NCBI GenBank assembly: GCA_001899315.1
Contig: MOYA01000001.1
Span: 931,105-995,104 of the forward strand
Length of the DNA: 64,000 nucleotides
From: Candidatus Obscuribacter phosphatis
Lineage (GTDB): Bacteria; Cyanobacteriota; Vampirovibrionia; Obscuribacterales; Obscuribacteraceae
Direction: 5' to 3'
Every line of letters starts with the position of its first letter. Position 1 is the stretch's first letter. Shown one piece after another: positions 47,743 to 53,660 of this stretch. A program made the translations under genes and the position numbers. The notes under the pieces are model-generated. The model was not told where the DNA came from, ran no database searches, and saw only the letters and a program-made list of their open reading frames with translations.

Positions 47743-47771
47743 TTGACTACCATACGGCTGTATGGTTTAAT
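47743..47771 (+). promoter_or_regulatory. imu promoter with LexA-like operator filling its spacer
   Basis: TTGACT (47743-47748) and TTTAAT (47766-47771) are separated by exactly 17 bp, a strong sigma-70-type promoter. The whole spacer and first base of the -10 box form an inverted repeat, ACCATAC-GGCT-GTATGGT (47749-47766), with perfect 7-bp arms. The core TAC-N4-GTA has the same spacing as the cyanobacterial LexA box (GTAC-N4-GTWC type). A dimeric repressor bound here would block the polymerase. It drives imuA, imuB and dnaE2. LexA is not in the window, so the regulator is inferred from the operon content. Confidence 0.78.
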
Positions 47772-47829
47772 TTCTTCATCGGGGAAATGCAGTTTTTAAC
47801 TAGATAGAAAGGAGGCTATAGCGCCAGCT

Positions 47830-48651
47830 ATGGTCCAGGTCGGTGTCGCTAATTTAAGAAAAGAACTGGAACAGTTGTTCCCAGGAAAGTGGCTTTCTCC
47901 CGGAGAGAGTGTGAGGGCTCTCAAAACCGGGTTGAGCTTTCTGGATGTTCTCAGTCCTGCTCTTGTTAGAAGACATTTGACCGAATGGTTTGGTTCGTCA
48001 TCTTCAGGAAAAACATCGGTCTTAAGAACCCTTTGCTCTAGATGGTGTGCGTCCGGTCTGAATATCGTTTATATCGACACTTTTGACAGGCTGCTCGCAT
48101 CCGACTGGTGTGATGTTGGTAACAAGAATGAAGGAAGATTCTGGGTCTTGAGAGGTGGGGTAACCATACTGGAGAGAGAGGCTGGATTAGATTATACGAA
48201 GAATGCACTCTGGGCCTGTGAGCAATTGATTCGCTCTCAAGCTTTTGATGTGGTCATTCTCGATCTGGCGGAAAGGGGAGTCATCACAAGCAGTGTTCAT
48301 GCAAGACTTAAGAGGTCCTTGGAGAGATCCAACACTTCTTTGATTGTGCTTCGGGATGATGACTCCCTTTCATCCGATTCAGAGATGGGCAAGTTTTCAT
48401 CGCCTGTTTCGTCTGCAGCAGGCAGAGTTGATTTTGGTTTCGTAGAGCCGGTGCGTATTGAGTATGGTGTCGACGGTCCGATATCTATTACTCCCACTAT
48501 TCGCAGTACTATCGCGCGGGCGATTCTTCGAGCTGGAATGGGAGTTAGTGGTGGGGGTAAGAGTCTGGAGGTGAGTGTCTCTCCTTATGTCTCGAATCGC
48601 TTGTTTACGCATCCCCCGGTTCCCGATCGTCGTACATCAAAAAAGAGATGA
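47830..48651 (+). CDS. imuA: ImuA-like RecA-fold protein of the mutasome
   Basis: 273 residues, a RecA-like ATPase-fold protein with a Walker-A-like SSSSGKTS (about 57-64), then VVILDLAERG near the Walker B position. First gene of imuA-imuB-dnaE2, the damage-inducible translesion cassette; ImuA is thought to help assemble ImuB and DnaE2 at stalled forks. AAAGGAGG lies 14 nt before the ATG, a longer spacing than usual. Sequence similarity is weak as is normal for ImuA, and the operon position is the strongest support. The last 65 bp overlap imuB. Confidence 0.85.
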   Translation: MVQVGVANLRKELEQLFPGKWLSPGESVRALKTGLSFLDVLSPALVRRHLTEWFGSSSSGKTSVLRTLCSRWCASGLNIVYIDTFDRLLASDWCDVGNKNEGRFWVLRGGVTILEREAGLDYTKNALWACEQLIRSQAFDVVILDLAERGVITSSVHARLKRSLERSNTSLIVLRDDDSLSSDSEMGKFSSPVSSAAGRVDFGFVEPVRIEYGVDGPISITPTIRSTIARAILRAGMGVSGGGKSLEVSVSPYVSNRLFTHPPVPDRRTSKKR

Positions 48652-50236
48652 ATTGAAAGATCGTCCTTTTGTTCTTCTTTCTTCATCGCAAGAAAATTTA
48701 AATATTGGTCGCTGTAAGGTCTTGCTTTGCTCCGCTTCGGCTAGCAAAGCCGGTGTTGAGCCGTCTATGACTTTTACCGAGGCTAGGGCTGTTTGTTCGC
48801 AATTGATCTGGAGGGCTTATGATGACAAGTTATACAAGAGTGCGCAGAAGAAATTGGCGGGAGAACTCATTGCACTATCACCAAGGATCGGTTGCGCTGA
48901 GCCTGGTATCTTCTTCCTCGATGCTCAGGGACTTGATCACTTGGGCGGCGAAGGCAAGCTTTGCCGAGATTTACTTAAGTTGGCTAGTCGTAATGGTTTT
49001 GTTGACGGGCGTGTCGGCATCGCTGGTTGCGCTTTTACTGCAAGGATAGCCAGCAGTTCGCTTAAGAAGCGATGGACAATTGTTCCGGCTGGTCAAGACT
49101 GCGACTTTATGGCGCCTTTGCCGATTAGTCTTTTGCCTCTCTCTCCCGAGTCCCTGGCTAATCTTGAGGCTCTGGGTATTAAAACAATTGCTCAGATGCT
49201 TGCTCTTCCCAAGGTTTCTTACGAAGGACGATTTTCTTCTGATGTTATCTCGGCTTACGAGTTAGCTGGTGCGTCAGACCCTTTCTCTCCATCTTTACCT
49301 TTTGTCGAGAAAAGTTTTGATGTTTTTTTCGATATCGGCTCTGCTCTAGATTCGCTCAAAGAAACTCTCTTCATCTTAAAAAGCATGCTCGATAAGCTTT
49401 CTGCCGAGCTTCTCAAAGAAGGACTGTCTGCCGATGAACTTACTTTGCGATTTTATAATGACAATGATCTGTTTGACGAGAGAGCGATCAAGCTGCTTCG
49501 ACCATCAGTAAATAGTCGATTTCTTCTTGATGTTGTGCGCTTATCGCTTGAGTCAAAACCTCTCAAACGCGAGTTTACAGCAATCAGGCTGATTGTTTCA
49601 CGCTTTAGTCGTGAGGCTTTTGAGCAGATTCACACTAAATTGGGTTCGTCTCGAAATAATGAAAAGGAGGTCAATGATAATTCTGTTTTACTTCTGATGC
49701 AAAGATTATCCTCTCGCCTTGGCGAGACCGCTCTGGTTAGGCCTCTGGCTTCAGATGGTCATTTGATTGAAAATTCAGGCTTCTGGCAGCCGGTCTTGAG
49801 CCGATCCCTGCCGTCTGAATTCCTACCGGTTGATAGTGCGTATGTCGATAAGTGTCTTGGTACACCTGGAAAGGATAACTTGATGCCTGGTCTTGTGCTT
49901 AAGCGTCATGTGCCGGCTATGCCGGTTTTTGTCAGTAGTGTCAAAGGAGATAGTGATTCGTCTCTTTCGGCTTCTCATAGTGTTCCTACTGCCGTTACGT
50001 ATAAGGGGCAGTGGTATCAAATTAGTCGAGTCACTATGCCTGAGCGTATTTCGGGCTTATGGTGGGAAGTGCCGGTGCGTAAGTCTTATTATGTAGCTTT
50101 GCTTGATAAGCTTTCTAGAAGAAAGCCTAGCCGATCTACACCAGATAAGAAGTCGGACTTACCTGCTTTTATGACTGTTCTTTTGGTCTTTGATCACCAA
50201 GAACAGTCCTGGTATGTGGAGGGTGTTTTCGATTGA
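48587..50236 (+). CDS. imuB: ImuB, catalytically inactive Y-family polymerase homologue
   Basis: About 550 residues. The Y-family fold is visible (ACLRIPRFPIVV start, GIFFLDAQGLDHLGG, VGIAGCAFTARIASS, LEALGIKTIAQMLALP), but the metal-binding acids of active Y polymerases are missing: the first strand has no Asp-x-Asp and the usual Asp-Glu pair is replaced by DA. ImuB is known to be an inactive bridge between the sliding clamp, ImuA and DnaE2. Start is the ATG at 48587; a GTG at 48575 has GGAGG only 3 nt before it. The stop at 50236 is followed one base later by the dnaE2 ATG. Confidence 0.92.
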   Translation: MSRIACLRIPRFPIVVHQKRDELKDRPFVLLSSSQENLNIGRCKVLLCSASASKAGVEPSMTFTEARAVCSQLIWRAYDDKLYKSAQKKLAGELIALSPRIGCAEPGIFFLDAQGLDHLGGEGKLCRDLLKLASRNGFVDGRVGIAGCAFTARIASSSLKKRWTIVPAGQDCDFMAPLPISLLPLSPESLANLEALGIKTIAQMLALPKVSYEGRFSSDVISAYELAGASDPFSPSLPFVEKSFDVFFDIGSALDSLKETLFILKSMLDKLSAELLKEGLSADELTLRFYNDNDLFDERAIKLLRPSVNSRFLLDVVRLSLESKPLKREFTAIRLIVSRFSREAFEQIHTKLGSSRNNEKEVNDNSVLLLMQRLSSRLGETALVRPLASDGHLIENSGFWQPVLSRSLPSEFLPVDSAYVDKCLGTPGKDNLMPGLVLKRHVPAMPVFVSSVKGDSDSSLSASHSVPTAVTYKGQWYQISRVTMPERISGLWWEVPVRKSYYVALLDKLSRRKPSRSTPDKKSDLPAFMTVLLVFDHQEQSWYVEGVFD

Positions 50237-50237
50237 T

Positions 50238-53200
50238 ATGGCTTCTCTCGACTATGCTGAACTTCACTGTCATTCAGCTTTTTCTTTTCTCTCGGGGGCA
50301 AATCAACCTGAAACCCTGGTGGAAAGAGCGAGAGAAGTTGGTCTTTATGCCCTGGCTTTAACCGATACTTTAGATCTTGGTGGTATTCCTCGTTTTGGAC
50401 AGTCCGCCCGTGAAGCCGGTATTGCCGGTATTATCGGGGCTGAACTGATTATGGAGGACGAGTTTCAGCTGGTTTTGTTGGCTTGCGATTTGACTGGCTA
50501 TAGCAATATCTCTTCTCTAATCAGTAAGTCACGTATGAATAACGAGCGCGGTGAAGCGAGGGTCAAATATGATGATTTATTTGCAAACTCGGATGGCTTG
50601 ATAGTTCTTTCCGGCGACGAGAATGGCGCTATTGCCAGTGCCTTGTATAGAGGTGAAGAGACTCGTGCTGTCAAGTATCTGCGTAGACTGAAGGAGGTAT
50701 TTGCCAGTCGCTTTTATATTGAGGTCTGTAACCACCATTTAGCCCAGGAAAGTCGAGTGGCCAGGCGCTTGATAGAGATGGCTGTTTCTAGTGGGGTGAA
50801 TTGGGTTGTTGCTAATTCCGCCTTCTATGCAAGACCGGCTGATCGCATTATTCATGATGCTCTTGTTTGTTTGAAACATAGAGTCACTCTTGATAAAGCC
50901 GGTAGACGCTTGCGCCCTAACGGCAGTTGGTATATAAGATCCCCAGAAGAGATGCTGGCTATATGGCGGGATGATCTGACCGGTATCAAGAATTCACTGT
51001 TTATCGCCGATCAATGTCGGTTTAGATTAGGCTGGCTTGATCCGCCTTTGCCTGATTATCATATGTCTGAGCAGATTGCCTCTAGCATTACCGATGCCCC
51101 GCCTTCGCTTAAATCGTTGAATTATAGCGAGCTTTTGCGTTATCTGGTCTTTCGTGGTGCCGCAGAGCGCTACGGTGAGCTGACCTCTTCTTCTGTGCAC
51201 CTCAAGCAACTTGAGCATGAGTTGGCTTTGATCAACAGTCTCAAGTTGGCACCCTACTTTCTCATTATGTGGGATATCGTGCGTTTTGCTCAGTTGCGCG
51301 GTATTGCCGTACAAGGACGTGGTTCGGCTGCTAATTCCGCTGTTTGTTATTGTTTGAAGATTACAGCTGTAGATCCTATTGCTATGGATTTGCTCTTTGA
51401 GCGATTTTTGTCGGAGGGGCGCAGTGAACCTCCTGATATTGATTTGGATATTGCCCACCATGAACGAGAGCAGGTTCTGCAATATGTTTATAACAAGTAT
51501 GGTCGTGCCCATGCCGCCATGGTCTGTGAAGTGATTACCTATAGAGGGCGGTCGGCGGTAAGAGATGCTGCCTTTGTTTTGGGTTTCTCGCAGGAGCAGG
51601 CAGATATGCTGGCTTCTCTAGCCGGTCATAGTGAAGCCCGCGGTGCCGCTGCCCGTTTAGCCGGCAGTGAAGGTGATCTCCTTTCGCCTCTTGGTTTCGC
51701 TCCTGACGATAGACGTATACAACTGCTTATCAAGATTGTTTCTGGTTTACATCAACTGCCCAGGCACCGTTCCATTCATGTGGGCGGTTTTGTCCTTTCC
51801 GCCCGCCCGGTATCAGAAGTGGTGCCGATTGAACCGGCTTCGATGGCTGATCGCACCGTTATTCAGTGGGATAAGGACGACCTCGATCTGGTTGGCTTGA
51901 TCAAGATAGACCTGCTTGGTTTGGGCATGCTCACTATGATTCAAGAAGCCTTGAAGCTTTTGCAGAGTCACCGTGGTATCACTCTTGATATCGGCAAGCT
52001 CGATATGAAAGATGCTTCAATCTATGCCATGCTTCAGAAAGCTGATACAGTCGGGGTATTTCAAGTTGAGTCGCGGGCTCAAATGAATATTTTGCCCAAG
52101 CTTAAGCCGGTTTGTTTTTACGACATCATTGTTTCTATTGCCATCGTCCGACCCGGTCCCATACAGGGCAATATTATTCATCCTTATTTGCGGCGCCGTC
52201 AGGGACTTGAACCGGTTCGCTATTTACACCCCAGTCTCGAACCGATCTTGAAGCGTACCCTGGGGGTACCGCTTTTTCAGGAACAGGGTATGAAATTGGC
52301 GGTAATTGCTGCTGGTTTTACCGCCTCTCAAGCTGATCAGTTGCGGAAAGTGATGAGTCATAAACGCTCGGTTGAGAAGATGGCCAAGCTTTGTCATGCT
52401 CTAGCCGAAGGTATGGCTGGACGAGGCTTTAGCCAGGAGGCTATCGAAACGGTTACACATCAGTTACGAGCTTTTGCCAGTTATGGCTTTCCCGAGAGTC
52501 ATGCCGCTTCTTTTTCTTTGCTTGTCTATGCCTCGGCTTATCTGAAGCGTTATTTCCCCGCCGAATTTTATTGTGCTATGTTGAATGCACAGCCGATGGG
52601 CTTCTATAGTCCATCTTCTTTGATAGGCGATGCCAGGCGGCATGGTGTTGTGGTCTTACCGGCTGATCTGGCTTTTAGCAGTTGGAATTCTACCCTTGAA
52701 CCAATTCTCAGTGCCTCTCCCGATAGAAAAGAGTTTGAACAAATCTCTGAACAAATTTCTGTACAAATCTCTGAACAGACATTGAGGCAAGAAACTGCAG
52801 CCGCTGACTTCTTGCCTCGATCAGTTTCAGCAGAGCCCGCAGCCACAGTCTTTGCCTTAAGGCTGGGTTTGAGATTTATAGACGGACTGGGTAGTCGTTC
52901 AGCTGTGCTTTTGGAAGCAGCCCTAAAGCAGGGACCTTTTAGAAGTCTAGCCGATGTCGTTGAGAGAAGCGGCTTTTCCGCCGCCGAATTAAAAATTTTA
53001 GCCCGAGCCGGTGCCTTTGAGACTTTCGTAAAAGGAAGGCGACAGGCGCTCTGGCAAGTACTTTCTCTCTTGAGTCCGCGTCCGGCTACTCCTTTACTCG
53101 ATTATTTGACTGGTTGCGCCAATAGTACCGATAGCGAAGTAGAGCTGCCTGATATGACCGAGATTGAGAATGTTATAGCCGACTATAGTACTGCTGGATT

Positions 53201-53660
53201 GACCACTGGCGCGCATCCTATGACTTTCTATCGCGCCTGGTGTCGAAAGCGTTCGATAGTAAGTTGTCTTGGTTTACGAAACGGTATAGACGGAGACGAA
53301 GTGGAAGTAGCCGGTGGTGTGATTTGCAGACAGCGGCCGGAAACAGCTAAAGGCTTTGTTTTTCTTACTTTGGAAGATGAGAGCGGTATGGCTAATGTGG
53401 TGGTCAACCCTAAGGTTTTTGAGGTCTATCGCCGCCTTATCCTTGATAATCCTTATTTGAGAGTGCGTGGGCGGCTGCAATTAGAGCAGGGGGTCTGCAA
53501 TGTTATTGCTAAACATTTTGATGTATTGCCTGCCCTTAAGGATTCTGGCGTAGCTTCGACTGAATGCGCAACTTCTGACGAGGCGGCAGCACATAGCCGA
53601 GATCGCTCTCAATCCGCCTCTCAAAATGCCGTAGAGTTGACTTCTCGGAATTTTCGATAG
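50238..53660 (+). CDS. dnaE2: error-prone DNA polymerase III alpha subunit (ImuC/DnaE2)
   Basis: About 1,140 residues. An N-terminal PHP domain (YAELHCHSAFSFLSGANQPE) and the polymerase core with PDIDLDIAHHERE, the metal-binding Asp triad, SDQLRKVMS and ASYGFPESHA. TTGAHPM and a C-terminal OB domain (about 1020-1100) match DnaE2. It carries out translesion synthesis after DNA damage with ImuB. A short repeat of Glu-Gln-Ile-Ser, 12-nt units, lies in a linker near 840. The last 40 codons (Ser/Ala/Asp-rich) overlap the end of the opposite-strand kinase gene by 125 bp and look like a non-conserved tail. Confidence 0.95.
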   Translation: MASLDYAELHCHSAFSFLSGANQPETLVERAREVGLYALALTDTLDLGGIPRFGQSAREAGIAGIIGAELIMEDEFQLVLLACDLTGYSNISSLISKSRMNNERGEARVKYDDLFANSDGLIVLSGDENGAIASALYRGEETRAVKYLRRLKEVFASRFYIEVCNHHLAQESRVARRLIEMAVSSGVNWVVANSAFYARPADRIIHDALVCLKHRVTLDKAGRRLRPNGSWYIRSPEEMLAIWRDDLTGIKNSLFIADQCRFRLGWLDPPLPDYHMSEQIASSITDAPPSLKSLNYSELLRYLVFRGAAERYGELTSSSVHLKQLEHELALINSLKLAPYFLIMWDIVRFAQLRGIAVQGRGSAANSAVCYCLKITAVDPIAMDLLFERFLSEGRSEPPDIDLDIAHHEREQVLQYVYNKYGRAHAAMVCEVITYRGRSAVRDAAFVLGFSQEQADMLASLAGHSEARGAAARLAGSEGDLLSPLGFAPDDRRIQLLIKIVSGLHQLPRHRSIHVGGFVLSARPVSEVVPIEPASMADRTVIQWDKDDLDLVGLIKIDLLGLGMLTMIQEALKLLQSHRGITLDIGKLDMKDASIYAMLQKADTVGVFQVESRAQMNILPKLKPVCFYDIIVSIAIVRPGPIQGNIIHPYLRRRQGLEPVRYLHPSLEPILKRTLGVPLFQEQGMKLAVIAAGFTASQADQLRKVMSHKRSVEKMAKLCHALAEGMAGRGFSQEAIETVTHQLRAFASYGFPESHAASFSLLVYASAYLKRYFPAEFYCAMLNAQPMGFYSPSSLIGDARRHGVVVLPADLAFSSWNSTLEPILSASPDRKEFEQISEQISVQISEQTLRQETAAADFLPRSVSAEPAATVFALRLGLRFIDGLGSRSAVLLEAALKQGPFRSLADVVERSGFSAAELKILARAGAFETFVKGRRQALWQVLSLLSPRPATPLLDYLTGCANSTDSEVELPDMTEIENVIADYSTAGLTTGAHPMTFYRAWCRKRSIVSCLGLRNGIDGDEVEVAGGVICRQRPETAKGFVFLTLEDESGMANVVVNPKVFEVYRRLILDNPYLRVRGRLQLEQGVCNVIAKHFDVLPALKDSGVASTECATSDEAAAHSRDRSQSASQNAVELTSRNFR
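52740..52775. repeat. 12-nt tandem repeat in linker of dnaE2
   Basis: Three units near CAAATCTCTGAA encoding Gln-Ile-Ser-Glu, Gln-Ile-Ser-Val, Gln-Ile-Ser-Glu in an interdomain linker. Confidence 0.85.

Follow-up and report, generated by a model that had tools for sequence, protein, structure and literature searches.

The imuA-imuB-dnaE2 operon and its promoter

The 64-kb stretch of DNA analysed here (the window) contains an operon of three genes, imuA, imuB and dnaE2, preceded by a promoter and a ribosome-binding site (Table 1). As in other mutasome operons, a Y-family-like ImuB is followed by DnaE2, whose translation more likely begins at an ATG near 50238. The imuA product gave weak RadB, ImuA and RecA matches only, all of them below the cut-off. 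The organism is a member of Obscuribacterales (Melainabacteria): its close relatives are assigned to Candidatus Obscuribacterales or Candidatus Melainabacteria, and the nearest named relative has an ImuB that is 97% identical. A match to imuB was found in 44 of 50 genomes of the family.

Table 1. Coordinates of the imu promoter elements and genes in the window
Feature	Position	Strand	Basis
-35 element TTGACT	47743..47748	+	Sequence; TTGAC[AT] adjoins the box on its 5′ side at most related imuA loci
Predicted LexA operator ACCATAC-GGCT-GTATGGT	47749..47766	no strand	Arms 47749-47755 and 47760-47766; three lines of evidence (see text)
-10 element TTTAAT	47766..47771	+	Sequence; TTTAAT or similar 3′ of the box in most related loci
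Ribosome-binding site AGGAGG	47810..47815	+	Sequence
imuA, RecA-like accessory protein	47830..48651	+	ORF; name from position before imuB
imuB, Y-family polymerase-like	48575..50236	+	Pfam IMS, 53.7 bits
dnaE2, error-prone DNA polymerase	50190..53660	+	NF004225, 1182 bits versus cut-off of 939

The preliminary description had placed a strong promoter at 47743-47771, with an 18-bp inverted repeat in its 17-bp spacer. Re-reading of the sequence gave the same coordinates and confirmed the perfect 7-bp arms. The repeat, ACCATACGGCTGTATGGT, has a 7-4-7 structure; it fills the spacer (47749-47765) and its last base falls inside the -10 element, a placement suited to blocking RNA polymerase and kept in most relatives. 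The palindrome alone proves nothing, because the window holds six perfect 7-4-7 palindromes and 3.65 were found in shuffled sequences, an expectation that would suit a chance palindrome in a constitutive promoter. Three further lines of evidence bear on the site, namely that it is the only exact copy in the genome, that it is conserved at imuA and that the lexA and splB promoters share it. The exact arms ACCATAC/GTATGGT occur once in the 5.49-Mb genome, where about 0.02 copies would be expected at equal base frequencies.

To follow the box in relatives, 30 imuA loci were collected with an ImuB profile, and a site was scored when it had at most three mismatches to the box. Such a site was present upstream of imuA in 27 of them and was perfect in 10. 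Among the closest genera, the arms were identical at all 14 positions while the centre varied (GGCT, GGCC, GAGC, AAGC, GGGT), and in most related loci the box was immediately flanked by TTGAC[AT] on its 5′ side and by a TTTAAT-like -10 element on its 3′ side. Constant arms, a variable centre and the same position in the promoter spacer therefore indicate operator-like behaviour. At one locus the site lay directly 5′ of imuB. A single genus contributed two imuA loci (L127 and L130) at which no clear site was found, and we counted these against a LexA operator. The conservation of the arms around a variable centre across many genera, together with the shared gene set described below, makes a chance palindrome extremely improbable.

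The box at lexA, splB and other repair genes

The genome encodes a single LexA, which passed the lexA equivalog model TIGR00498 (162.8 bits). Both PF01726 and PF00717 scored above the cut-off, the DNA-binding and self-cleaving S24 domains were complete, and the protein aligned with E. coli LexA across the cleavage site and the catalytic region. Its own promoter contains ACTATACTTACGTATGTG, overlapping the -10 element TATACT, and the splB promoter contains TACATACAAAAGTATGTA. Five YATAC-N4-GTATG sites were found in the genome, three of them at lexA, imuA and splB, although this looser pattern showed no genome-wide enrichment (4/3 matches versus 4/3 for the control). Four other matches, three inside genes and one between convergent genes, were taken as chance. 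Near-matches to the box precede a DEAD_2 helicase (L270, 1-1494; site at C1:1696628) and a PD-(D/E)XK open reading frame adjoining xseA. The regulon of this genome was compiled by pattern searches, and the list may be incomplete.

The preliminary description had proposed looking for the box upstream of both lexA and recA. The search succeeded for lexA, in the genome itself and in 37 of the 38 scored lexA promoters of the family, which contain the ACTATACTTAYGTATG element; the remaining promoter (L262) has a weaker form, ACTTACATATGTAT. The order's other family carries YTATACTTATGTATGGT-like sites at lexA. At recA, none of 28 upstream regions had the box, the best match showing at least five mismatches, and recA was rejected as a member of the regulon; we counted this absence, too, against a LexA operator. 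A LexA site at recA is common and not universal. The centre of the box in lexA promoters (for example, L016 1450-1467) is nearly invariant, TTAC or TTAT, in contrast to imuA, which suggests that it doubles as a part of the core promoter.

At splB, all 30 scored loci had a site; 23 of these had at most three mismatches, and seven were the symmetric variant NACATAC-N4-GTATGTA. These splB-like genes were recognized by Pfam Radical_SAM and named from their likeness to COG1533. At one of them (L152), the best-scoring match is probably not the real site, since a better-placed ACCATATATATGTATGAC is visible. A count over the 50 family genomes gave 105 sites differing from the box at no more than one base, versus 27 for a reversed-pattern control (both summed by hand). 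The box was also found upstream of separately transcribed dnaE2 at six loci, of UmuD-like S24 proteins at three, of a Rad3/DinG-like DEAD_2 helicase at five loci in relatives, of Ku at one (L200) and of further genes besides. The DEAD_2 helicase behind the box is likely an SOS gene; in L270 its N-terminal part is weakly Cas4-like.

The presence of the box at lexA and at other SOS genes, in a genome whose LexA has both of its domains, argues strongly that the imu palindrome is an operator of the organism's LexA, that is, an SOS box with the consensus ACCATAC-N4-GTATGGT. We consider this reading of the sequence data very probable. The earlier proposal of a lineage-divergent LexA box controlling imuA-imuB-dnaE2 is thus supported, because lexA, imuA and splB share the box both in this genome and in the family.

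The sequence of the box cannot by itself name its reader, because in some relatives a TetR-family gene lies behind a similar palindrome. At four loci, ACCATACTCTAGTATGTT-like palindromes are located 24 bp upstream of such a gene, as in autoregulation. The imu promoter might then be under the control of a different dimeric repressor that reads a comparable palindrome, such as a TetR-family protein, and the resemblance between this promoter and that of lexA would be incidental. However, the imu-type box is common to lexA, splB, dnaE2, umuD-like and helicase genes across the family, a typical SOS set, and in the loci read the TetR gene was near none of them. We therefore regard control by such a repressor as very unlikely. 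The LexA-box look-alikes themselves (at 1501 in L206, L246 and L258, and at 442 in L248) are probably operators of that TetR-family gene.

From the observed sites and their conservation, from the genes that share them and from a LexA whose domains are complete, we infer the following scheme of binding, repression, cleavage and damage induction. A LexA dimer on both arms would cover the spacer between the -35 and -10 elements and exclude RNA polymerase from the imuA-imuB-dnaE2 promoter. Upon DNA damage, RecA filaments would stimulate self-cleavage of LexA, which would free the imu promoter and allow synthesis of the ImuA-ImuB-DnaE2 translesion mutasome. LexA would also repress its own gene through the copy of the box that overlaps the lexA -10 element.

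Recognition helices and boxes across the phylum

In Obscuribacterales, a LexA with the recognition helix (K/R)NRMT(V/I) accompanies the box ATAC-N4-GTAT. Two other families in this class, f3 and f9, have the helix STSTIH and, as judged by eye, GAA-N6-TTC-like boxes in most lexA promoters. In the photosynthetic families the helix is SPAPIQSR and the box is RGTAC-N3-TGTTC, in agreement with the published one. Outside the class, two genomes (G155 and G173) have the helix KA(P/V)GTI(T/Q)DH and ACCATAC-N4-GTATGG boxes. A one-to-one match of helix and box within the class is thus too simple, because LexAs from outside it also go with the ACCATAC-type box, and the link between the two rests on few independent changes.

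Two further families of the class were also inspected. In f7, where the helix is KYHNSVQHY, a TTGTAC-N3-TGTACAA-like palindrome lies just upstream of lexA and is perhaps a further type of LexA box. In f4 the helix is TKGTLQYH, and CATAC-N4-ATATG-like sites (CATACATCCATATG) upstream of lexA may represent a variant ATAC box.

These data bear on whether the imu site is an ordinary cyanobacterial box with tolerated mismatches, read by a LexA of the cyanobacterial type. The organism lies within the cyanobacterial phylum, and the spacing of the TAC-N4-GTA core is identical, as the preliminary description had pointed out. This part of its comparison stands; a slightly changed cyanobacterial box does not, given that nearly all lexA, imuA and splB sites have ATAC/GTAT in place of GTAC/GTWC, and that the LexAs of photosynthetic families, with their own helix and box, form a separate clade in the tree (support 100/100). 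A cyanobacterial-type reader is accordingly highly improbable, and the organism's own divergent LexA is the preferred candidate.

On the LexA tree, two changes are required to account for the ATAC group, although a single clade was not rejected (AU p = 0.43). Some circularity is possible in this tree because the recognition-helix columns were included. G173 contains two complete LexAs, one with an STST helix and a GAAC-type box and the other with the helix KAVGTIQDH and a perfect ACCATACGTTTGTATGGT box. Because this genome carries both proteins, each with its own box, an intermediate of duplication, divergence and replacement would still be visible, and the two-LexA state is a possible snapshot of motif change. 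LexA motifs have been proposed to change through gene duplication and replacement (PMC8565304). Tentatively, and with somewhat more doubt than confidence, the LexA of Obscuribacterales may descend from an ATAC-reading paralogue that took over the whole SOS regulon when the canonical GAAC-reading copy was lost.

Comparison with known LexA boxes

If the LexA reading is correct, an uncultured, non-photosynthetic lineage beside the cyanobacteria would gain a defined SOS box and its first SOS regulon. Within one class, a change of the LexA box would be tied to a change of the recognition helix, and G173, with its pair of LexAs and their separate boxes, would be a direct test case for the duplication-replacement model (PMC8565304). 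In the literature searched, no LexA study of Melainabacteria was found, with relevance judged from titles, and no earlier report of an ACCATAC-type box with LexA was found in a comparison that covered fewer than the 17 motifs published by 2021.

The LexA box of photosynthetic cyanobacteria is RGTACNNNDGTWCB, or AGTACWNWTGTACT (PMC3091678). The two systems share the phylum, a pseudo-palindrome with a TAC-N4-GTA-like core, a position in SOS promoters and LexA as the known or proposed reader. In contrast, the Obscuribacterales box is ATAC-N4-GTAT with CC/GG flanks, and CATACGGCTGTATG does not match the cyanobacterial consensus, with three mismatches at the R, G and C positions. The recognition helix of the organism's own LexA is KNRMTVHQH rather than SPAPIQSR. 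The Bacillus subtilis LexA (DinR) box, CGAACN4GTTCG (PMC9578287, Table 1), is likewise a palindrome with an N4 centre, but its arms are GAAC rather than ATAC and the helix residues are unlike. It finds a counterpart in the GAA-N6-TTC boxes that go with the STSTIH helix in other families of the class. In Bacteroidetes, a non-canonical LexA reads GGA-N5-TCC or CTAA-N5-TTAG and controls an overlapping set of genes (imuA-imuB-dnaE2, splB and umuD) through a motif of the lineage's own (PMC8565304), whereas the LexA of Obscuribacterales is canonical. LexA boxes are thus already known to differ by lineage (PMC8565304), and ACCATAC-N4-GTATGGT would add a further one.
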